Of a stretch of 64,000 nt of DNA, positions 42,793 to 53,157 are shown piece after piece. The first letter of the stretch is position 1, and each line of letters begins with the position of its first letter. Both the position numbers and the translations under genes were made by a program. The stretch comes from Salipiger pentaromativorans. Lineage in GTDB: Bacteria; Pseudomonadota; Alphaproteobacteria; Rhodobacterales; Rhodobacteraceae. A model generated the notes under the pieces. That model was given only the letters and a program-made list of their open reading frames with translations, had not been told where the DNA came from and did not search any database. The DNA lies in NCBI RefSeq assembly GCF_024721115.1, contig NZ_JAMDHK010000008.1:1-64000 (forward strand). The letters run 5' to 3'.

Positions 42793-43542
42793 ATGTCGAT
42801 CGAACTGCCCCTTGACGGTTTCACCTCCAACCGCAGCCTCGAGGCGGTCTCGACCTGCCTTGAAACCATCGGCACCACGCGGTTCAACCAGTCGTTCATT
42901 GCCTTCGCCATGGGGCCGCTCGGCGCCGATCAATGCATGATCTTCGTCTATGAGGAGCAGTCCGCGCGCTGTTTCCTGTCCTACAACACCCTGCCCGACA
43001 CCGGCGCCCGCGCCCTGGCCGAGAACTACATCCTGCGGGGCCATGAAACCGACCCGATCCGCGCGCGGGTCGCGTCGCGGCGGCAGGCGGATGGCATCGA
43101 CATCTTCCCGCTGGCGGCGCTCTGGGGCGAGATGAGCGAAAGCTACCGCAAGGATTATTTCGAGACGCCGGGCATGGTCGACAAGATCGCGGTTCTTGCG
43201 CGGGGGCGCGGCCTGCTGCTGGGGCTCAATTTTTACCGCTACCGGGAAAGCGGTCCCTATGACCAGGGGGCCGCCGATCAGGGGGCCACGCTCTGGCGCA
43301 TCGCCGCCCAACTTGCGCTTCTGCACTACAGTTCTTCGCAGGACCATTCTCTGGAAGACCCGCTGCTGACACTTTCAGAGCGCGAGCGCGAAACCTGCCA
43401 GTGGATTCTCAAGGGGCTGAGCACCGAGGCCATTGCCTTTGAAATGGATCTCAGCCCGAACACGATCACGACCTATCGCAAGCGCGCCTACGACAAGCTC
43501 TCGATCAACTCGAAAGCGGCCCTCTTCGCGCTCTGCCGGTAA
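42793..43542 (+). CDS. LuxR-family transcriptional regulator (orphan)
   Basis: A 249-residue regulator. The C-terminal 60 residues are a GerE/LuxR helix-turn-helix (LTLSERERETCQWILKGLSTEAIAFEMDLSPNTITTYRKRAY). The N-terminal 170 residues are not an obvious receiver domain and lack the tryptophan/tyrosine pattern of acyl-homoserine-lactone binding; no luxI gene is nearby. It is most likely an orphan regulator of the adjacent hydroxylase/TRAP genes. The start at 42793 avoids placing the hairpin inside the gene; an ATG at 42679 is an alternative. No strong ribosome site is seen. Confidence 0.78.
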   Translation: MSIELPLDGFTSNRSLEAVSTCLETIGTTRFNQSFIAFAMGPLGADQCMIFVYEEQSARCFLSYNTLPDTGARALAENYILRGHETDPIRARVASRRQADGIDIFPLAALWGEMSESYRKDYFETPGMVDKIAVLARGRGLLLGLNFYRYRESGPYDQGAADQGATLWRIAAQLALLHYSSSQDHSLEDPLLTLSERERETCQWILKGLSTEAIAFEMDLSPNTITTYRKRAYDKLSINSKAALFALCR

Positions 43543-43564: not shown

Positions 43565-43760
43565 GGTGATCGGACAAGGTGCGGCGCAACGTCGTCGCGC
43601 GCTGGCGCGCCCCGCCACATGACAAGACAAATCCCTGCCGCGTGACCACAGCTAAGCTGCGCTAGCCCTCTGTCGTGATCCAGTGGACACGGGCGCCCTG
43701 GGCTTTGTCAGGAGAGGTATCGGCACTGCATCTACGACGTTAGTTTAATTTTTGGAAAAC

Positions 43761-43777
43761 ATACTTTACAAAAGTAT
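43761..43777. promoter_or_regulatory. Perfect operator-like dyad ATACTTT-ACA-AAAGTAT
   Basis: A perfect 7-bp inverted repeat with a 3-base spacer lies 22 bases before the dehydrogenase start, in an AT-rich island that contrasts with the GC-rich surroundings. It is a strong candidate operator for the polyol operon. The SorC-type regulator encoded at its end is the best candidate binder. Confidence 0.6.
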
Positions 43778-43799
43778 AAGAAATCCCTCTACTCCCCGC

Positions 43800-45512
43800 A
43801 TGACAGGGCATTCAGACATTCCGCGCGCCGACGGCGCCCCCTCCGCTCCGCTTCGCGAGACAGCGAAGGCGCGGCTTTCCGGGCTGACGGAGGTCGATGT
43901 GCTGATCCTGGGCGGCGGTGTGAACGGCATCGCGACGCTGCGCGATCTGGCGCTGAACGGCGTGTCCTGCGTGTTGCTCGACACCGGCGATTTTGCCGCG
44001 GGCGCCAGCAGCGCGTCGAGCCGCATGGCCCATGGCGGGCTGCGCTATCTGGAAGGCCGGGAGTTCCGGCTGGTGGCGGAATCGGCGCGCGAACGCAACC
44101 GGCTGATCGCCAATGCGGGTCATATCGTGAAGCCGCTGGCGATCAATGTGCCGCTCGACCATCTGGTCTCGGGCATCGCGGGGTCGGTCGCGCGGTTCCT
44201 TGGCCTGTCGCGCCGGGGCGGGCCGCTGTCGCTGGCCGCGCTCGAAGGCGCGCTCAGGCTCTATGAGGCCTATGGCCGGCGCGAGCACCCCCTGCCCGCG
44301 CACCGGACCCGGCTGCGCCGCGCGGCTTTCCCGGCGGGGCTGCCGGGAAGAACCCGCGCTATGGTGACCTATTTCGACGGCCAGATCACCCAGCCCGAGG
44401 GGCTCATGTTCGAGATGATCGCCGAGGCGATGGCCCAAGGTCCGCAGATCGCCGTGCTCAACCACGCCACATGGCAGCGCGACGGCGCGGCCTTCGTGAT
44501 CGCCGACCGCTTCGACGGCGCGGTCGGGCGGATCGCTCCGAAGATCGTGATCAACGCGACCGGCGCCTGGATCGACCGTGTGAACGCGGCGCTCGGCGGC
44601 GAGACGCGCTATCTGCGCGGCGTCAAGGGCGCGCATCTCGTGCTCGACAACCCCGCCCTGCACGCGCGTATGAATGGCGAGGCGTATTATTTCGACGATG
44701 GCACCGGGCGCATGGTGATCACCCTGCCCGTGGGCGACAACGTATTGGTCGGCACCACCGAGGTCGAAACGACCGAGCCCGACGATCAGGAGGTTGCCGA
44801 TCGAGAAATCGGCTATCTGCTGCGGGCGATGGACGGGCTGTTCTCGGACGTCTCCGTCACCGAGGAGCATATCGTCTCGATGACCACCGGCATCCGCCCG
44901 CTGCGGCGCGGCACCGGCTCTGTGACCAGCGCGGCGCGCGACCATGCGCTTGAGGAAGACCGTTTCGCCGGGCTCGACGCACCGGTGCTGTCGCTGGTCG
45001 GCGGCAAATGGACCACCTTCCGCGCCTTCGGCGAGGAAACCGCCGACCGGGCGCTGACGCTGCTGGGCCGTTCCCGTCAGGTCTCGACCGCCAGCCGCGC
45101 CTATCCCGGCGCGGCGCCCTGCTCTACCGACGCGCTGACGCAGAACCATCACATCGCCCCCGTACTCGCCGAACGGCTGCTGCACCGCTACGGCGCCCTC
45201 GCCCGCGAGGTCGCACCGCTTTGCGCCGGGTCCGGTGCGACGCCGCTCTCCGGCGCGCCCGACTATTGCCATGGCGAAATCCTCTGGGCGATCCGGGCGC
45301 GCGGCGCGCAGCGGATCGAAGATATCGTGCTGCGGCGCACGAGGCTGACCTTCGGCCACGGGCTGCGGCCCGAGACTCTCGACGCGCTCGCGGCGATCCT
45401 GCACACCGAGACAGGGCGCCCCGCCGATGCGCTCGCGGCCGAGATCCGCGGCGCGCTCGGCGATCCGCGGCTGATGGGGCCGCGCGCGTATCGCGAGGAG
45501 GACGCGGCATGA
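43800..45512 (+). CDS. GlpD/EryB-like FAD-dependent polyol-phosphate dehydrogenase
   Basis: A 570-residue flavoenzyme of the glycerol-3-phosphate dehydrogenase family. The FAD motif DVLILGGGVNGIATLRDLALNG and the following GASSASSRMAHGGLRYLE are family hallmarks; VGGKWTTFR closes the core and a C-terminal helical domain follows. It would oxidise a polyol phosphate at the membrane, passing electrons to quinone. The ATG at 43800 is the first with a normal N-terminus; a TTG at 43752 overlaps the operator. It is translationally coupled to an FGGY kinase, the EryA/EryB pairing seen in erythritol operons, so a C4-C5 polyol phosphate is as likely a substrate as glycerol 3-phosphate. Confidence 0.83.
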   Translation: MTGHSDIPRADGAPSAPLRETAKARLSGLTEVDVLILGGGVNGIATLRDLALNGVSCVLLDTGDFAAGASSASSRMAHGGLRYLEGREFRLVAESARERNRLIANAGHIVKPLAINVPLDHLVSGIAGSVARFLGLSRRGGPLSLAALEGALRLYEAYGRREHPLPAHRTRLRRAAFPAGLPGRTRAMVTYFDGQITQPEGLMFEMIAEAMAQGPQIAVLNHATWQRDGAAFVIADRFDGAVGRIAPKIVINATGAWIDRVNAALGGETRYLRGVKGAHLVLDNPALHARMNGEAYYFDDGTGRMVITLPVGDNVLVGTTEVETTEPDDQEVADREIGYLLRAMDGLFSDVSVTEEHIVSMTTGIRPLRRGTGSVTSAARDHALEEDRFAGLDAPVLSLVGGKWTTFRAFGEETADRALTLLGRSRQVSTASRAYPGAAPCSTDALTQNHHIAPVLAERLLHRYGALAREVAPLCAGSGATPLSGAPDYCHGEILWAIRARGAQRIEDIVLRRTRLTFGHGLRPETLDALAAILHTETGRPADALAAEIRGALGDPRLMGPRAYREEDAA

Positions 45513-46993
45513 GCGAGGATCTTCTGATCGCCATCGACGCCGGGGGGACGGCGGTCAAGGTCGTGGCCTTCGACCTGCACGGCACGGAAATCGCCTCGAA
45601 AACCGCCGATGTCGAGACCATCCACCATGCCGACGGGCGCGTCGAACGCGAGGTCGCCGCCTTCTGGTCCGGCACCGTTTCGGCGCTGCGCCGCCTCGTG
45701 GCGGATTGCGCCGGGCATCGCATCGCCGGGGTCGGCTGCACCGGTTTCGGCAACGGGCTTTTTCTGGTCGACGAGGACGGAAACAGCACAAGGCCCGGCA
45801 TCGTCTCGGTCGATCACCGCGCCCAGCCGCTGGTCGACGAGTTGACGCAGAGCGGCGAGGCGGCCTCCATTTCGGCGCTCACCGGGCACCGGCTCTGGGG
45901 TGGGCAAAGCCTGATGCAATTCGCTCAGCTCGCCCGCAGCGAACCCGATGTCATGGCGCGCAGCCGCTGGGCGCTGGCCTGCAAGGATCTCCTCCGCCTG
46001 CGGCTGACCGGCGAGGCGCTGACCGACCCGACCGACGCCAGCGGCGGTGGCATGATGGACATCGCCCATGGCGGCTATGCCACGGAGGCTTTCGCACAGC
46101 TCGGGCTGACGGACCACGCACACCGCCTGCCCCCCATCGCCGCCAGCGATGGCGTGGCGGGCCGGGTCTCGCGCCAGGCCGCAGAGGAGACCGGGCTGCC
46201 CGAGGGCACGCCCGTCGCGGGCTCGATGATGGACGTGGCCGCCTGTGCGCTTGGCGCCGGTGCGGTGGATGTGCCGGTGCTGACGATGATCGCGGGCACC
46301 TGGTCGATCAACAGCCTGGAAAGCGGGCCGCCCAAAGGCTGCGGCGTGCCGATCCTCAACATGCATTATCGCGGCGGTGACAAACGCCTCATCGCCGAGG
46401 GCAGCCCCTGCTCGGCGGCCAATCTGGGCTGGTTTCTCCATCACGCAATGGGTGGGCGCGTCTCGGTCTCGGAAGCGAACGAACGGGTCGCAAGTTGCCC
46501 CGTCGAGGCCCGCCGCTGCCAGTTCCTGCCCTATGTCTTCGGCCCCGAGCCCCGGCGCGGCGGCTTTGTCGACATGGGCGCGGGGGACGATCTCGGCACC
46601 ATGCTGCGGGCGATCTACGAGGGTGTGGCCTTTCAGGCGCGCCGCCACGCGGAAGATGCGGTGGCGCTGGCCGGGCAGGCGTTTCCGCCCGCGATCCGCC
46701 TTGCCGGAGGGGCCGCGAAATCGCCGGTCTGGGGGCAGATCTTTGCCGATATCTGCCAGCGCCCCGTGGAGGCGGTGCGCGCGGCGGAGGTGGGCGCGCT
46801 CGGCGCCGCGATCTGCGCTTCGGTGGCCTGCGGCGCCCATGCCGATCTGGGCCAGGCCGCGCGGGCGATGACCGGCGTGGCGCGGCGCCACACGCCCAAC
46901 CCGGCGCTGGCCGGATTTTACGACGACAGGTTTCGCAGGTTCCGCCAGCTCGACAAAGGCATGGCGGCGCTGCTGGAGGAGGCGGCCCGCTGA
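45509..46993 (+). CDS. FGGY-family carbohydrate (polyol) kinase
   Basis: A 494-residue sugar kinase of the ASKHA fold. The phosphate-1 motif IAIDAGGTAVKVVAFDLHG is at the N-terminus, followed by the sugar-contact segment RPGIVSVDHRAQPLVDEL and the C-terminal FGGY-type segment RLAGGAAKSPVWGQIFADICQRPVEA. By sequence feel it is nearest to erythritol or L-xylulose kinases, but the substrate is not certain. It overlaps the dehydrogenase stop by 4 bases. It would phosphorylate the imported polyol before oxidation. Confidence 0.83.
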   Translation: MSEDLLIAIDAGGTAVKVVAFDLHGTEIASKTADVETIHHADGRVEREVAAFWSGTVSALRRLVADCAGHRIAGVGCTGFGNGLFLVDEDGNSTRPGIVSVDHRAQPLVDELTQSGEAASISALTGHRLWGGQSLMQFAQLARSEPDVMARSRWALACKDLLRLRLTGEALTDPTDASGGGMMDIAHGGYATEAFAQLGLTDHAHRLPPIAASDGVAGRVSRQAAEETGLPEGTPVAGSMMDVAACALGAGAVDVPVLTMIAGTWSINSLESGPPKGCGVPILNMHYRGGDKRLIAEGSPCSAANLGWFLHHAMGGRVSVSEANERVASCPVEARRCQFLPYVFGPEPRRGGFVDMGAGDDLGTMLRAIYEGVAFQARRHAEDAVALAGQAFPPAIRLAGGAAKSPVWGQIFADICQRPVEAVRAAEVGALGAAICASVACGAHADLGQAARAMTGVARRHTPNPALAGFYDDRFRRFRQLDKGMAALLEEAAR

Positions 46994-47034
46994 GGCCGCG
47001 CGGGACACGACAAAAACCACAGGGAGGAAGACCA

Positions 47035-48315
47035 ATGCAACGCAAGACTCTGCTGCTCGGCACGGCGCTTTGCGCGCTGGCCGCGCAGGTTCAGGCGCAG
47101 GACGCGATGGCCTGCAAGGGCGCGGTGCCCACGCTGAACGTGATCGGCCAGGGCATGCCCGCGGTCACCGCGCTTGACGGCGCGCTGTCCGAGTTCAACG
47201 AGAAATGGGACACCGAGGTGCGCATCACCCTGCTGGGCGAGAACGAGCGGCGCGCCAAGGCGCGGCTCGATGCCTCGACCGGGGCGGGCGCTTATCAGGT
47301 GCTTTATATCGACGAGGCGAACCTCGCCGAATATGTCGATGCGGGCTGGGTCTATCCGCTCGCCGATGTGGTGCCCGAAAGCTATGATCTTGACGATTTC
47401 CGCACCGATCTGAGCAATGTCGCCACGGTCGACGGGGTGCAGTATTTCGCCCCCTTCGTGGGCGGCGGCGACGTGATGATGTACCGCAAGGATTTGCTGG
47501 AGGCCGCAGGCATCGCGGTGCCGACCACGCTCGATGAGATGGTCGCGGCGATCAAGACGCTGGACGCGGCGGACAACGGCGCGCATGGCTGGTCGGCGCG
47601 CGGCCAGCGCGGCTCGGGCATGAATGTCTGGCGCTGGACACCGTTTTTCCGCGCCATGGGCGGCGAGTGGCTCGACGACGGCGGCATGCCCGCCTTCAAC
47701 GGCGAGGCGGCGGTCGAGGCGACCGGGCTTTATACCGAGCTGATGGACTACGCCCCGCCGGGCGTCGCCACCTTCAACTGGTCGGACTCGGTCGAGGCGT
47801 TCCGGGGTGGTCAGGTGGCGATCCTGATCGAATCCGACGTGTTCGGCCCGTGGATGGAAGACCCCGAGAAATCCTCGGTCGTGGGCAAGGTGGGCTATGC
47901 CCCGCCGCCCGATCCGCTGCCCTCGGCGGGCTGGGCGCATGGCTGGGCGGTGTCCAGGGTCGGCGCGGCGGAGGACTGCCTGAAGACCGTGGCGGGCGAT
48001 TTCGTCGGCTGGGCGACCTCGAAGGAGATGGAGCAGAAACGGCTTGCCGCAGGCATCGCCTCGGATATCGGCCGCGTCTCGACGCTGCAAAGCGACGCCT
48101 TCAAGGCGCTGGTGCCGCAGGCCTATATCGACGCGCTGCTCGACACCGGCCCCAAGACCGGCCTGCTGATCATGGCCAGCCCCGCCTGGCCGGAGATCGG
48201 CGACACGCTGGGTCTGACGCTGGAAGAGATCTTTGCCGGCACCCGCGACGACACGCAGGCGGCGCTGGATGAGGCGGCCTTCTTTGCCGAAGACAGCCTG
48301 ATGCGGCTGAAGTAA
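47035..48315 (+). CDS. ABC sugar/polyol substrate-binding protein
   Basis: A 426-residue family-1 periplasmic binding protein with a Sec signal of about 21 residues (AAQVQAQD). The stretch GGGDVMMYRKDLLEAAGIAVPTTLDEMVAAIKTL is typical of carbohydrate-binding proteins. It supplies the importer formed by the next three genes. AGGGAGGAAG precedes the ATG. A GC hairpin lies after its stop, which would favour excess binding protein. The ligand is presumably a polyol, from the kinase and dehydrogenase upstream. Confidence 0.87.
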   Translation: MQRKTLLLGTALCALAAQVQAQDAMACKGAVPTLNVIGQGMPAVTALDGALSEFNEKWDTEVRITLLGENERRAKARLDASTGAGAYQVLYIDEANLAEYVDAGWVYPLADVVPESYDLDDFRTDLSNVATVDGVQYFAPFVGGGDVMMYRKDLLEAAGIAVPTTLDEMVAAIKTLDAADNGAHGWSARGQRGSGMNVWRWTPFFRAMGGEWLDDGGMPAFNGEAAVEATGLYTELMDYAPPGVATFNWSDSVEAFRGGQVAILIESDVFGPWMEDPEKSSVVGKVGYAPPPDPLPSAGWAHGWAVSRVGAAEDCLKTVAGDFVGWATSKEMEQKRLAAGIASDIGRVSTLQSDAFKALVPQAYIDALLDTGPKTGLLIMASPAWPEIGDTLGLTLEEIFAGTRDDTQAALDEAAFFAEDSLMRLK

Positions 48316-48328
48316 ACCGCCCTCCCCC

Positions 48329-48359
48329 GGCCCGGTGCGCTGCTCCCGCGTGCCGGGCC
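48329..48359 (+). terminator. Intercistronic hairpin after the polyol binding-protein gene
   Basis: A 7-bp GC stem (GGCCCGG / CCGGGCC) with a 17-base loop lies between the binding-protein stop and the permease start. Like the hairpin at 4437 it may protect the upstream mRNA or reduce read-through. Confidence 0.45.
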
Positions 48360-48382
48360 CCACTCCCCCTGAAGGATAGGAC

Positions 48383-49255
48383 ATGACCCGGAAACGGTTC
48401 GTCACCCTGACACTTGTCCCGGCGATCGGGCTGCTGGCGACGCTGGCGCTGGTGTCGATCGCGGGCGCGGTGTGGTTCGCCGTCATGAACCGCACGCTGC
48501 GCTCGCCCGATTACGATTTCGTCGGCGCCTACAACTTCCTGCGCCTGCTGCGCGACCGGCGGTTCTTCAACGCGCTGGAAATCTCGGCGGTCTGGGAGGC
48601 GGTCACCGTCATCGGCACGCTAGCGCTCGCCGTGGTCCTCGCGGTGCTGATCTTCGAGACGGTGAAAAAGCCGCTCACCCGCAACCTGATCTGCTTCGCC
48701 TTCCTCGTGCCGGTGCTGCTGCCGCGCGTCGCCGCCGCCTTTATCTGGCGCTTTCTCTATTCGCCGTCGCTGGGCGTGATCAATTATCTCTGCGGCCTTG
48801 TCGGCATCGGCCCGGTCGAGTTCCTCGCCGACCCGTCGCTGGCGCTGATCTCGGTCGCGGTGGTGGATATCTGGCAATGGGGGCTGTTCTTCACGGTCAT
48901 CCTGCTCAAGCTGATGGAGACCCTGCCCCGCGATCCCATCGAGGCGGCGATGCTCGACAATGCCCGCACCTGGGAGATCCACGCCTATGTCACGCTGCCG
49001 ATGCTCAAGGGGCCGCTGATCAGCCTCGCGCTGGTCAAGGCGGTGGAAAGCCTGCGCTCCTTCGATCTGATCTTTGTCATGACCGGCGGGGGGCCCGGCA
49101 CCGCGACCGAAACGCTCGATCTCTATGCCTATCAGATGGGGATCAATATGGGCGGGCGGATCTCCTACGCCTCGGCCATGTCGCTGCTGCTGCTGGTGGT
49201 CACCACCGTCGCCTTCACCATCATCTGGAAAGCGGGGAAGAAATGGGCAAGCTGA
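48383..49255 (+). CDS. ABC permease (MalF-like), polyol importer
   Basis: A 290-residue inner-membrane permease with six helices, a coupling loop EAAMLDNARTWEIHAYVTLPML (about 192-213) and the conserved MTGGGPGTATETLDLYAYQMG segment. It forms the pore with the next gene product. Its last 13 bases overlap that gene. The start has a GAAGGATAGG ribosome-site region. Confidence 0.9.
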   Translation: MTRKRFVTLTLVPAIGLLATLALVSIAGAVWFAVMNRTLRSPDYDFVGAYNFLRLLRDRRFFNALEISAVWEAVTVIGTLALAVVLAVLIFETVKKPLTRNLICFAFLVPVLLPRVAAAFIWRFLYSPSLGVINYLCGLVGIGPVEFLADPSLALISVAVVDIWQWGLFFTVILLKLMETLPRDPIEAAMLDNARTWEIHAYVTLPMLKGPLISLALVKAVESLRSFDLIFVMTGGGPGTATETLDLYAYQMGINMGGRISYASAMSLLLLVVTTVAFTIIWKAGKKWAS

Positions 49256-50058
49256 TTTCCGCAACCCTCACCCGCGCGGTCCTGGCACTGCTGATCGTGC
49301 TGGCGCTGGGGCCGATCCTCTGGACCGTGCTCGGCGCGTTCAAGGAACTGCGCGACATCGTCACCCCGGTGCCGAAGCTGGTCTTCACCCCGACGCTGGA
49401 CAATTTCGCCACCATCCTGCGCAACCCCACCATCCGCGACGGGCTGCTGCATTCGGTGATCGTGGTCTCCGCCGCGGTGCTGATCGGCGCGGTGCTGGGC
49501 ATCCCCGCCGCCCATACGCTGGCGCGCCACGCCCGCAAATGGGGGGACGACGTACAGTTCTTTGTCCTCTCGCTGCGCTTCATGCCGCCGGTGGCCATCG
49601 CGATCCCGTTCATCGTGATCTATCTCGATCTCGGCATCTACGACACGCTCTTTGGGCTGGTGCTGGTCTATCTGATTGTCACCGTCTCGACCGTGATCTG
49701 GCTGGCCGTGCCCGCCTTCGAGCGCGTGCCCCGCGACATCGAGGAGGCCGCCGCCATGGAGGGCTGCGGCCCAGCGGAAATCTTCTGGCGGTTCTCGCTG
49801 CCCGTCGCCGCCCCCTCGCTCTTCGGCGCGCTGGTCTTCACCTTCGTGCTGGTCTGGAACGAGCTGCTGCTGGCGCTCACCCTTGCGGCGCAGAACGCCA
49901 CGCTGCCGGTGGTCGCCGCCTCCATCACCTCGCTCGGCAAAGAGGTGCCCTGGGGCGTGATCAATGCCGCCACCGTGCTGCTGGTGCTGCCGCCGCTCGT
50001 CTTCATCGGCCTGCTTATGGGCCTTCTCAACACCATGGTCCGCAGCGGCCCGAAATAG
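49243..50058 (+). CDS. ABC permease (MalG-like), polyol importer
   Basis: A 271-residue inner-membrane permease with six helices and the EAA coupling loop PRDIEEAAAMEGCGPAEIFWRFSLP (about 161-185). The ATG at 49243 lies inside the preceding gene end and gives a normal N-terminus; longer frames are out of register with family members. It pairs with the MalF-like subunit. Confidence 0.9.
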   Translation: MGKLISATLTRAVLALLIVLALGPILWTVLGAFKELRDIVTPVPKLVFTPTLDNFATILRNPTIRDGLLHSVIVVSAAVLIGAVLGIPAAHTLARHARKWGDDVQFFVLSLRFMPPVAIAIPFIVIYLDLGIYDTLFGLVLVYLIVTVSTVIWLAVPAFERVPRDIEEAAAMEGCGPAEIFWRFSLPVAAPSLFGALVFTFVLVWNELLLALTLAAQNATLPVVAASITSLGKEVPWGVINAATVLLVLPPLVFIGLLMGLLNTMVRSGPK

Positions 50059-50067
50059 GACACTCCC

Positions 50068-51153
50068 ATGGCCAATATTACCTGTACCGACATCGTCAAA
50101 GCCTATGGCGCCCACCCGGTGATCGAGGGGCTTCAGCTCGACATCCCCGACCATGAGTTCGTGGTCTTCCTCGGCCCCTCGGGCTGCGGCAAATCCACCA
50201 TGCTGCGGATGATCGCCGGGCTCGAAGAGGTGACCGGCGGGCGCATCGCCATCGGCGGCACCGACGTCACCGACCTGCCGCCGGGCGAGCGCGGCGTCGC
50301 CATGGTGTTCCAGAGCTACGCGCTTTACCCGCATATGTCGGTGCGCGACAACATCACCTTCGGCCTGCGCCGTCAGGGCGCCAGCCGCGCCGAGATCGAA
50401 CCGCGTCTGACTCAGGTGGCCGAGCTTCTGGGGCTGGAAAAGTTCCTCGACCGGCGTCCCAGGAACCTCTCGGGCGGCCAGCAGCAGCGCGTCGCCATGG
50501 CCCGCGCGATGATCAAGACGCCGCAGGTCTTCCTGTTCGACGAGCCGCTGTCGAATCTCGACGCCAAGCTGCGCGAGAAGCTGCGCACCGAGATCCGCAA
50601 GATCCACATGCAGCTCAAGACCACGACGATCTTTGTCACCCACGACCAGCTCGAAGCGATGACCATCGCCGACCGCATCGTGCTGATGCGCGACGGCAAG
50701 ATCGAGCAGATGGGCAGCCCGGACGAGATCTTCGAACGCCCGGCCTCGCGGTTCGTGGCGGATTTCATCGGCACCCCGGCGATGAATTTCGTCCATGCCG
50801 AGATCGTCGCCGGCGACCGGCTCACCGCGCATGGCGGCGGCATGACCCTGCACCTCTCGCCCCAGGCCTTCACGACACTGAAACCGGGGCAGCGGGTCGA
50901 GCTGGGCCTGCGCCCGGCGCGCATGGATCTCTGCGAGCCCGGTGCCGAGAACGCGCTCAGCGGCAAGGTGGTGCTGGTCGAGAACATGGGCGCCGAGGGT
51001 CAGGTGATCACCGAGGTCGCGGGGCAGGAAATTTCCTTTGTGACCCAGGCGTTCCGCAGCCTCTCGCCGGGCGACAGCGTGTGTTTCGCCATCTCGCCCG
51101 ACCATATCCACGCCTTCGACCCGGAAACGGGCGACAGTCTTCGTCAGGAGTGA
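50068..51153 (+). CDS. ABC ATP-binding protein (UgpC/MalK-like), polyol importer
   Basis: A 361-residue ATPase with Walker A GPSGCGKST, Q-loop VFQSYALYPH, signature NLSGGQQQRVAMARAM, Walker B VFLFDEPLSNLD and the H-loop VTHDQLEA, all intact. A TOBE domain follows from about 240. It acts as a homodimer for the two permeases, in contrast to the heterodimeric ATPases at 6191-8306. The aldolase-like gene starts 4 bases after its stop. Confidence 0.92.
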   Translation: MANITCTDIVKAYGAHPVIEGLQLDIPDHEFVVFLGPSGCGKSTMLRMIAGLEEVTGGRIAIGGTDVTDLPPGERGVAMVFQSYALYPHMSVRDNITFGLRRQGASRAEIEPRLTQVAELLGLEKFLDRRPRNLSGGQQQRVAMARAMIKTPQVFLFDEPLSNLDAKLREKLRTEIRKIHMQLKTTTIFVTHDQLEAMTIADRIVLMRDGKIEQMGSPDEIFERPASRFVADFIGTPAMNFVHAEIVAGDRLTAHGGGMTLHLSPQAFTTLKPGQRVELGLRPARMDLCEPGAENALSGKVVLVENMGAEGQVITEVAGQEISFVTQAFRSLSPGDSVCFAISPDHIHAFDPETGDSLRQE

Positions 51154-51157
51154 TCCG

Positions 51158-52165
51158 ATGACCGCCACCCGCTACGCTGCCAAGCTCGCCCGGATCCGTG
51201 CCGGAGTGTACACCACCGGCGATTACATGATCGCCGACGCCAAGGATGCCGACGTGACCGGCGGCATCCCCGCCACCGGATCGCGCCGTGATGCGCAGGG
51301 ACGGCCCGCCGGGCCACGCACCCGGCCCGAATTCCTCGACCAGATCCGCGCGGTGATCGACCAGGACGTGGTCGACATCATGCTCACCTCGGCGGGCAAT
51401 CTCGACGCGCTGAACGAGGCGCAGGCGTTTCGCGGCAGCGCCATTCAACCCGCCTTTCGCGGCAACGAAACCACCTGCGTTTGGGGAAATATCCGCGGCG
51501 GGCGCTATACCGAAGCCCCTTCCCGCCCCTATCGCGGCGCCGATCTGGGTTTTGCGCCGGGCGATCTGTGCCTCTATTCGCTGACCTTCAACAACGACGC
51601 CGAGGCCGACACAAAGATGCTCGATGCCTATGCCGCCTTTCGCCGCGAGGCGCGGGCCGCGGGGGTGAAGCACTTTCTGGAGGTCTTCAACCCCAACCGC
51701 CCCGATGCCGTCGCCAAAGACGCGCTCGGCGCCTATGTCACCGATTGCATTCTCCGGCTACAGGCCAGCATGACCCGGGCCGAGCGCCCGGAATTCCTCA
51801 AGGTCGCCTATAACGGCCCCGAGGCGATGCAGCAGCTTGCCGCGCATGACCCCTCGATGGTGGTGGGCGTGCTGGGCGGTGCCGGTGCCACCCATCGCGA
51901 CACGTTCGAGCTGATCGCGCAATCCGAACGCCACGGCGCGCGGCTGGCGCTTTTCGGGCGCAAGATCAACCAGGCCGAGGACCAGTGCCTGCTGATCGCC
52001 TGGATGCGGCGTGTCGCCGACCGCGCCGCCACGCCCGAAGAGGCGGTACGGGGCTATCACGCGGATCTCGCGCGCAAGGGCCTGCATCCCGACCGCGCGC
52101 TCGACGCGGATCTGACAATCACCAGCGAGGTGTTGCGCTTTGACGCCACCCCGGTCGCCGTCTAG
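51158..52165 (+). CDS. LacD-like class I aldolase
   Basis: A 335-residue TIM-barrel-like protein of unclear exact family. The segment PEFLKVAYNGPEAM with K215 resembles the Schiff-base lysine strand of LacD/DhnA-type aldolases, and GVLGGAGATHRDTFELI resembles their phosphate-binding loop. It would cleave a ketose phosphate to a triose phosphate and a short aldehyde, or act as an isomerase. It is inside the polyol operon, after the ATPase gene, and overlaps the regulator start by one base. Function is inferred; the context (kinase, dehydrogenase, importer) supports sugar-phosphate cleavage. Confidence 0.6.
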   Translation: MTATRYAAKLARIRAGVYTTGDYMIADAKDADVTGGIPATGSRRDAQGRPAGPRTRPEFLDQIRAVIDQDVVDIMLTSAGNLDALNEAQAFRGSAIQPAFRGNETTCVWGNIRGGRYTEAPSRPYRGADLGFAPGDLCLYSLTFNNDAEADTKMLDAYAAFRREARAAGVKHFLEVFNPNRPDAVAKDALGAYVTDCILRLQASMTRAERPEFLKVAYNGPEAMQQLAAHDPSMVVGVLGGAGATHRDTFELIAQSERHGARLALFGRKINQAEDQCLLIAWMRRVADRAATPEEAVRGYHADLARKGLHPDRALDADLTITSEVLRFDATPVAV

Positions 52166-52203
52166 TGTGCGCCGATCCGCAGCGCCGCAAGACGAGGCCC
52201 AAG

Positions 52204-53157
52204 ATGGTCCGCTCGAACCACCCCTCCGACAGGATCGTCGCCGAGGTTGCCTGGCTCTACTATATCAAGGGGCTGAATCAGGCCGATATCGCCAAGCACC
52301 TGGCCCTGTCGCGGCCCACGGTCGTGGCCTATCTGCGGCTGGCCAAAGAACGCCAGATCGTCGGCGTGAAGATCCAGGGCGCGCATTTCCGGGTCAACGC
52401 GCTGGCCGACGGGCTGCGTGAGCGCTTCGGGCTGGAAAGCGCCTTTGTGGTGCCCGAGGAAGGGAGCCGCGCCGAGACCGCGCAGCAGGTCTGCGAGGCG
52501 GCGGCGCAGTTCCTGCCCGATTTCGTCCGGCCCGGCGACACGCTCGGCGTAAGCTGGGGGCAGACCGTCTCCTTCGTCTCCGAGCGTGTGCCCTGGTGGC
52601 CGGTCGACGGGCTCGTCGTGCGCCAGCTCATCGGCTCGCTGGCCAACCCGCTGCTGCCGACCTGCGAAAGCTGCACCACCGAGATCGCCCGGCGCCTCTC
52701 GGCGCAATGCATCAACCTCAACGCCCCCGCCGTCTGCACCGAGGCCGGTCTGGCCGAAAGGCTGCGCGCGGAGCCGATCATCGCCGAACAGCTCGACCGC
52801 CTGCGCGACTGCAACAAGGCGATCTATTCGCTGAGCCCCTGCACCCCCGACACCCATGTGGTGCAGTTCAACCTCGCCACCGAACAGGACGTGGCGGACT
52901 ACGTTGCCGAAGGCGCCGTTGGCATCATCGCCGGGCGCTTCATCGACCGGGACGGCACGCCTGTGGCCGGAGAGCTGGACCGGCGCATGATCGGCGCCGA
53001 ACTTGACGTGCTGCGCGAGATGGAGGGGCTGGTGGTGGTCTACGGGCTCGAGAAACTCGACGCCACCCGCGCGGCGCTGCGCGGCGGCTACGTCTCTCAC
53101 CTGGTGCTGGATACGGTCCTTGCCGAAGCGCTGCTTGGCGATGGGGAACTGCCCTGA
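52204..53157 (+). CDS. SorC/DeoR-type sugar-binding transcriptional regulator
   Basis: A 317-residue regulator with an N-terminal helix-turn-helix at about 10-45 (AWLYYIKGLNQADIAKHLALSRPTVVAYLRLAKE) and a large SorC effector domain that binds phosphorylated sugars. The ATG at 52204 has GAGG 7 bases upstream; a GTG at 52165 overlapping the previous stop would add 13 residues. It ends the polyol operon and probably recognises the dyad at 43761-43777. The effector is likely the pathway's sugar phosphate. Confidence 0.85.
   Translation: MVRSNHPSDRIVAEVAWLYYIKGLNQADIAKHLALSRPTVVAYLRLAKERQIVGVKIQGAHFRVNALADGLRERFGLESAFVVPEEGSRAETAQQVCEAAAQFLPDFVRPGDTLGVSWGQTVSFVSERVPWWPVDGLVVRQLIGSLANPLLPTCESCTTEIARRLSAQCINLNAPAVCTEAGLAERLRAEPIIAEQLDRLRDCNKAIYSLSPCTPDTHVVQFNLATEQDVADYVAEGAVGIIAGRFIDRDGTPVAGELDRRMIGAELDVLREMEGLVVVYGLEKLDATRAALRGGYVSHLVLDTVLAEALLGDGELP

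Follow-up and report, generated by a model that had tools for sequence, protein, structure and literature searches.

The window analyzed here is a 64,000-nucleotide stretch from Salipiger pentaromativorans (positions 1 to 64,000 of contig NZ_JAMDHK010000008.1, contig C38 among our genome handles; the host genome is 5.28 Mb). Between 43800 and 53157 it contains an operon of eight genes, all on the plus strand and joined by overlaps or short gaps, in the order flavin adenine dinucleotide (FAD) dehydrogenase, FGGY kinase, CUT1 binding protein, two permeases, ATPase, class I aldolase-like protein (ALD for short) and SorC-type regulator (Table 1). This agrees with a preliminary description of the same DNA, in which uptake, a kinase, a dehydrogenase, an aldolase-like protein and a SorC-type regulator were placed in one operon. 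The eight-gene order and strand were identical in all 14 window-type loci examined (that is, homologous loci with the operon arrangement of the window; L-numbers denote the homologous loci compared), with ALD there being 60-85% identical. These loci came from Salipiger, Roseinatronobacter, Celeribacter, Pseudoprimorskyibacter, Actibacterium, Rhizobium, Agrobacterium and Martelella, and include some redundancy (L011 and L048 belong to one species, and L005 and L085 apparently to one genome). The operon is real and conserved. Within the genus, a close ALD (77-100%) could be found in only 4 of 20 genomes, so that the gene looks accessory at this level.

Table 1. Features of the operon and its upstream region (positions in the window)
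Feature	Position	Strand	Basis
FAD-dependent polyol-phosphate dehydrogenase (DAO + DAO_C), predicted; outside the GlpD/EryB clade	43800..45512	+	Pfam, tree, identities, bimodal scores
FGGY-family carbohydrate (polyol) kinase	45509..46993	+	Pfam; best NCBIfam match XylB
CUT1-type periplasmic solute-binding protein	47035..48315	+	Pfam; nearest solved proteins 5iai and 4rya
ABC (ATP-binding cassette) sugar transporter permease	48383..49255	+	Pfam
ABC sugar transporter permease	49243..50058	+	Pfam
UgpC/MalK-type ABC ATPase	50068..51153	+	Pfam; PRK11650, 449.8 bits (above the cutoff of 432)
Class I aldolase-like TIM-barrel protein (ALD); K215 is the predicted Schiff-base lysine	51158..52165	+	Model, Foldseek, profile alignment, conservation
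SorC/DeoR-type transcription regulator with sugar-binding domain	52165..53157	+	Pfam Sugar-bind, 164 bits
Inverted repeat (7-3-7) ATACTTT-aca-AAAGTAT, possible operator of the SorC-type regulator	43761..43777	.	Shuffles and cross-locus comparison
Possible second upstream control box, CTACGACGTTAGTTTAAT	43732..43749	+	Read by eye

In the protein catalogues searched, the ALD family is unnamed. No Pfam family matched the window protein, and 33 of its relatives gave just five isolated one-member matches (E 0.03-0.1); PF01791 (DeoC/LacD) was absent from the matches of these 33 members at E 0.1. At the same threshold or better, the NCBIfam models for ADH synthase, LsrF and archaeal class I fructose-bisphosphate (FBP) aldolase were matched by 32, 25 and 23 of the 33 members, respectively; the matches of the window ALD to these models were weak and far under the cutoffs (14.1 bits versus 297 for the LsrF equivalog). 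A profile search of the Protein Data Bank with ALD gave LsrF (1.9e-5) and MJ0400 (0.003). The AlphaFold2 model was an eight-strand TIM barrel (mean predicted local distance difference test score 90.7, predicted TM score 0.90), and among the 50 Foldseek matches listed for it LsrF, LacD, ADH synthase and archaeal FBP aldolase led with E-values of 5.9e-9 to 7.0e-7. LacD tagatose-1,6-bisphosphate aldolase, DhnA/ADH synthase, archaeal FBP aldolase and LsrF share a strand-6 lysine and a strand-7/8 phosphate site. ALD resembles them in its barrel; it differs in its identity to the solved proteins listed (11-15%), its length (335 residues) and the lack of a Pfam DeoC/LacD match. The lysine singled out in the preliminary description is exactly residue 215 and lies on the sixth barrel strand of the model (214-217), which is where class I aldolases have their Schiff-base lysine. 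In an hhalign comparison it stood opposite the IVK lysine of a rhizobial aldolase set (E 2e-4, probability 47%), one member of which was run against Pfam and proved to be of the DeoC/LacD family. By fold and strand-6 lysine, ALD is thus predicted, from a confident model, to be a member of the class I (Schiff-base) aldolase superfamily. Membership of the LacD/DeoC family itself was rejected for want of a Pfam match, and the earlier label 'LacD-like aldolase' applies to the fold but not to the family.

Conservation of the putative active site was followed in 38 aligned relatives and in a survey of 69 loci (45 from genomes, 15 of 47 plasmid records and 9 further stretches). K215 was kept in 35 of the 38 relatives and in 67 of the 69 loci, and G237, G240 and R268, which by analogy with LacD, DhnA, FBP aldolase and LsrF may form the strand-7/8 phosphate site, were invariant (38 of 38). 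All 13 tabulated positions were the same as in the window in every window-type row. Two of the three K215 exceptions, the Salipiger paralogues L056 and L089, had lost D27, E175, K215 and K269 together, as would be expected if these residues share an active site; in the third, L088, K29, K215 and K269 were all replaced by R. The full set of changes in L056 (G000:C8:62398-63369, the K215E paralogue of the host genome, outside the 69 loci) and L089 was D27F, E175Q, K215E, G241C and K269E, and this paralogue is an apparent dead aldolase. An ALD homologue of about 40% identity was present in 19 of the 20 genomes of the genus (in G386 in two pieces); the residue loss was checked in two. L088 (G393:C64) adjoins a ROK-type regulator, and no kinase was found within 6 kb of it. 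In Sagittula sp. MA-2 (L064, 12001-12303), the gene annotated as FAD-dependent monooxygenase covers a 101-residue stretch with 62% identity to ALD, possibly a remnant or chimera; this partial match was dropped from the survey.

The dehydrogenase had been described as GlpD/EryB-like, and both it and the kinase as shared with erythritol operons; neither enzyme proved close to EryB or EryA. With the pRL12 genes of strain 3841, named from gene order, as EryA/EryB references, the kinase was 28% identical to EryA (over 479 columns) and the dehydrogenase 29% to EryB, about the same as to the other GlpD homologue of the host (28%; the genome search gave one further homologue in the host, at 30%). In an unrooted tree, EryB and the host GlpD were split from an 18-row clade containing the window dehydrogenase with 100/100 support, and the cutoff of the NCBIfam GlpD equivalog was not reached (237 bits versus 360). 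Scores in the class and phylum genome samples were bimodal, at least 273 bits for the clade and about 174 bits and below for all others.

We compared the neighbourhoods of 22 clade loci (13 genera, several loci sharing a genus), which were all non-own matches of at least 273 bits in the two samples, with those of 37 GlpD-type control loci (32 genera), which were not drawn at random but chosen from among the higher-scoring matches below 175 bits; a stub, L211, was excluded. An FGGY kinase lay within 5 kb in all 22 clade loci and in 8 of the 37 controls. A class I aldolase lay within the same distance in 16 of the 22 (L180 being weak, 75 bits) and in none of the controls; with loci taken as independent, Fisher's test gave 6.8e-10, which overstates independence since genera repeat. 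Counted by genus, the difference was 8/13 versus 0/32 (6.0e-6), or 7/13 (3.8e-5) without L180. The profile that detected the 16 aldolases had been built from four L094-type proteins, one of which was run against Pfam. Overall, three aldolase types could be identified beside clade dehydrogenases: ALD, class I DeoC/LacD (L094-L098) and class II fructose-bisphosphate aldolase (FBA; L093 and L110), the last beside clade members on plasmids pRL12 and pRltTA1D. That three unrelated or distantly related aldolases adjoin one clade would be hard to explain unless the product of the clade dehydrogenase is an aldolase substrate. This association is the strongest independent evidence for an aldolytic scheme, and the clade is best called polyol-phosphate dehydrogenases that are mostly but not exclusively linked to aldolases.

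Two of these arrangements are of interest in their own right. L094-L098 represent a conserved, mostly rhizobial operon with a CUT2 transporter, SorC regulator, aldo/keto reductase, clade dehydrogenase, class I FBA, FGGY kinase and GMC oxidoreductase. On pRL12 of strain 3841, the ery genes have as their immediate neighbour a second, divergent polyol-like locus (L110, 7766-12155) with an FGGY kinase, clade dehydrogenase, class II FBA and CUT2 transporter. Like the window operon, the L094-L098 operons, L093 and L110 have a dehydrogenase of the same clade (37-38% identical for L093, L094, L095, L097 and L110), an FGGY kinase (34-36%) and an adjoining aldolase; they differ in the aldolase family (Pfam DeoC/LacD or class II F_bP_aldolase, tested for L094 and L093), the CUT2 transporter and the extra oxidoreductases. 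No published function for the L094-L098 and L110 operons was found among the open-access literature matches listed.

Neighbours of ALD across its own family were examined after the 69 loci had been reduced to 34 clusters at 80%. A sugar kinase was present within 6 kb of ALD in 28 clusters, and the six others comprised three with cut flanks (L012, L015 and L036), two lacking K215 (L088 and L089) and one from a planctomycete (L039). This would fit an enzyme acting on a phosphorylated ketose, and is supportive only, as sugar loci often hold kinases. Since the kinases vary (FGGY, PfkB, ADP-PFK-like and DhaKL), the substrates of the family would differ. A clade dehydrogenase together with an FGGY kinase was near ALD in 13 of the 34 clusters, and the GlpD-linked ALDs occupied three separate positions in the ALD tree. 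In Gluconobacter, the kinase, dehydrogenase and ALD genes are followed by triose-phosphate isomerase (TPI), a CUT2 transporter and a DhaKL-type kinase, which would suit formation of dihydroxyacetone phosphate (DHAP) and glyceraldehyde from a hexitol. An aldehyde dehydrogenase gene is near ALD in L059, L016 and L048. It follows ALD in Vibrio and is about 2 kb away in Metarhizobium; in R. daejeonense (L048), which has the window-type operon, it is divergent and situated about 0.9 kb upstream. In addition, ALD in a marine alphaproteobacterial single-cell genome (L018) has in its vicinity genes for D-lyxose isomerase, RbsD, two PfkB kinases, two FGGY kinases and half a transketolase, and all 19 loci of its cluster have FGGY and PfkB kinases nearby. 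Those full-length plasmid matches listed that are annotated have their ALD relatives called 'hypothetical protein'.

With regard to the substrate, the best NCBIfam match of the kinase was XylB (203 bits, under the cutoff of 380). The solved proteins nearest to the binding protein were 5iai (E 7.8e-38) and 4rya (E 1.5e-28), the latter bearing 'Sorbitol' in its name and the former being a ribitol-containing structure according to the accessible part of PMC8468352. A five- or six-carbon sugar alcohol is the likely substrate. A tetritol, which the preliminary description had also considered, is unlikely, because on chemical grounds cleavage of tetrulose 1-phosphate would give DHAP and formaldehyde. 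The earlier scheme of uptake, phosphorylation, oxidation and aldol cleavage is otherwise favoured by the association of the clade with aldolases and by the structure model.

From what was observed, namely the gene content and its conservation, the predicted fold, the conserved lysine, glycines and arginine, and the association of the clade with FGGY kinases and aldolases, we infer the reactions, their regiochemistry, the substrate, induction and the effector of the regulator as follows. The binding protein and ABC transporter would bring the polyol into the cell, where the FGGY kinase would phosphorylate its terminal carbon. The membrane-linked FAD dehydrogenase would then oxidize the carbinol beside the phosphate, as GlpD and EryB do, to a 2-ketose 1-phosphate; the product of EryB, L-3-tetrulose 4-phosphate, has its keto group next to the phosphate, according to the available text of PMC11508834. 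On this precedent for the oxidized carbon, the product of the clade dehydrogenase would contain the DHAP half that is needed. ALD would form a Schiff base through K215 and cleave the 2-ketose 1-phosphate, releasing DHAP and an aldehyde of two carbons (glycolaldehyde, from a pentitol) or three (glyceraldehyde, from a hexitol). The SorC regulator would sense a sugar phosphate of the pathway and act at a box upstream of 43800. We consider it moderately probable that the operon is induced to break down a C5 or C6 sugar alcohol and that such a cleavage is its last step.

The known system closest in design is the erythritol operon eryABCD of Brucella and Rhizobium pRL12 (partly accessible description in PMC3599248), which also has an FGGY kinase, an FAD-dependent GlpD-type dehydrogenase acting on a polyol phosphate and a SorC-type regulator, EryD, to which the Sugar-bind protein of the window corresponds. 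In both, the kinase would act first and the dehydrogenase second. The window operon has a single aldolase-like protein in place of EryC, TPI and RpiB, which are present on pRL12. Identity with the erythritol operon was rejected on the basis of the low identities to EryA and EryB given above, the separate tree clade and the absence of isomerases among the eight genes. The proposed operon would rather join the front half of the erythritol pathway to a LacD-type cleavage. A similar last step is part of the synthetic xylulose 1-phosphate pathway, which yields glycolic acid or ethylene glycol from xylose and in which a ketose 1-phosphate is split into DHAP and glycolaldehyde; it is engineered and starts from a ketose, not from a polyol phosphate. 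The mannitol/sorbitol pathway of Haloarcula, as far as the accessible text of PMC11519228 describes it, has CUT1 uptake and a class I aldolase as its last enzyme, as proposed here; unlike the window pathway, it oxidizes before phosphorylation and cleaves fructose 1,6-bisphosphate. Polyol catabolism is said most commonly to oxidize first and phosphorylate afterwards (PMC10433430, in the part available), so that the order proposed here would be uncommon. Among the open-access literature matches listed, judged by titles and the starts of abstracts and with subscription papers mostly outside, no description of the ALD family or of this gene set was found.

Several observations weigh against an aldolytic role for ALD and its operon. 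In the samples of 22 loci the partner aldolase was always of the DeoC/LacD type and never ALD, and the pairs of ALD and clade dehydrogenase stem from searches begun with ALD; most ALD relatives lie beside PfkB, DhaKL or ADP-PFK-like kinases without a clade dehydrogenase. The identity of ALD to solved proteins is low, as noted, and its best fold match, LsrF, carries the NCBIfam name thiolase. Neither an aldehyde dehydrogenase nor TPI or triokinase is among the eight genes of the window. No aldolase was found near 6 of the 22 clade loci, and 5 of the 13 genera were without any aldolase-bearing locus. Two of these six loci (L179 and L187) have GntR/UTRA regulators and no recognized partner; in the stretches around the other four there is an EryA homologue (57-75%), accompanied in two of them by EryB (69% and 84%). 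TPI is present in L183 and L186. Since L186 pairs an EryA homologue (59%) and the clade dehydrogenase, which may stand in for EryB there, with TPI and RpiB, the dehydrogenase can apparently also feed an isomerase route. The Gluconobacter TPI could be an EryH-like isomerase, and the two Gluconobacter genomes searched have three TPIs apiece. The arrangement in L186, and the fact that EryC is likewise of a TIM-barrel family, would fit the explanation that ALD is a TIM-barrel epimerase or isomerase that takes over from EryC/EryH, the pathway then being erythritol-like and draining through the pentose phosphate pathway. We consider this rather unlikely: pRL12 EryC belongs to Pfam AP_endonuc_2 and ALD does not, ALD keeps the strand-6 lysine and has class I aldolases as its neighbours in fold space, and the same dehydrogenase clade adjoins Pfam DeoC/LacD and class II FBA genes.

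The pathway may also be aldolytic and its import something other than a simple alditol, such as a deoxy or branched polyol, a polyol glycoside, or a compound from which an aldo/keto reductase makes the polyol in the cell. The aldo/keto reductase and GMC oxidoreductase of the class I FBA operons and the Zn-alcohol dehydrogenase of the Metarhizobium and Vibrio versions would agree with this, but none of these extra genes is in the window operon and its nearest solved binding proteins are polyol-associated; this possibility seems unlikely. An Lsr-like system, in which autoinducer-2 (AI-2) or a similar signal is imported, phosphorylated and processed with ALD as an LsrF-type thiolase, is suggested by LsrF at the top of the Foldseek and profile matches, LsrK as the top solved match of the kinase and an LsrR model that matches the regulator. 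Against it, the kinase scored higher with XylB than with the AI-2 kinase equivalog (148.6 bits, cutoff 528 not reached), the regulator higher with the DeoR repressor model (174 bits) than with LsrR (88 bits), and the binding protein was closest to polyol-type solved proteins. The only enzymes among the eight genes are the kinase, the dehydrogenase and ALD, and to our knowledge a dehydrogenase has no part in the Lsr pathway. Disfavoured by the AI-2 kinase and LsrF equivalog cutoffs and by operon content, such a system is very improbable here. Finally, ALD might bind a sugar phosphate in a regulatory role or catalyze another lysine-dependent reaction, given its distance from all solved members listed and the retention of Salipiger paralogues that have lost the catalytic set; with no change at the 13 tabulated positions in the window-type rows, we regard this as improbable.

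The region upstream of 43800 contains an inverted repeat, reported earlier as a perfect 17-bp dyad; the repeat exists, and has two perfect arms of 7 bases with 3 bases between them. When the bases of the 257-base intergenic region were simply shuffled, 2000 times, a perfect dyad with 7-base arms appeared in 15% with any spacer of 0-11 and in 1.6% with a spacer of exactly 3, so that on its own it is weak as a signal; conservation helps. L006 and L010 have its inner 15-mer, TACTTTACAAAAGTA, without a mismatch ahead of the operon, and in the remaining 10 loci read it had 2-4 mismatches in six and 5 in four, the latter being background level (second-best background matches had 5-7). The best match lay 33-43 bases before the start used in 9 of 10 Rhodobacterales loci (window counted) and at 72 in L009; the starts used for L003, L004 and L010 are approximate. 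Because the dyad falls inside the mechanical TTG open reading frame (43752), the dehydrogenase probably starts at the ATG at 43800. The natural reading is that the dyad may be an operator for the SorC protein. Strings like CTACGACGTTAGTTTAAT were seen by eye, without a statistic, at a similar place in L004, L005, L006, L009 and L010. Flanking the operon are histidine genes and a TRAP transporter, both identified by eye, and, directly upstream, a LuxR-type gene (Pfam GerE; 42793-43542). The latter was rejected as part of the operon, as tblastn at 1e-8 gave no match to it in any of the 69 ALD loci.

Taken more broadly, we give about even chances to an undescribed 'phosphorylate, oxidize, cleave' route for sugar alcohols across Alphaproteobacteria and some other Pseudomonadota, whose hallmark would be a dehydrogenase clade that makes 2-ketose 1-phosphates and to which three aldolase families have been fitted, ALD being a new DHAP-aldolase family recruited several times. 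If true, this would provide a function for a family now called 'hypothetical protein' and for a dehydrogenase clade often annotated as glycerol-3-phosphate dehydrogenase or oxidase, so that pathway calls would be corrected. Sugar alcohols would bypass the pentose phosphate pathway and give DHAP directly, together with glycolaldehyde or glyceraldehyde, and the operons would offer natural parts for ketose 1-phosphate routes that are now built by engineering.

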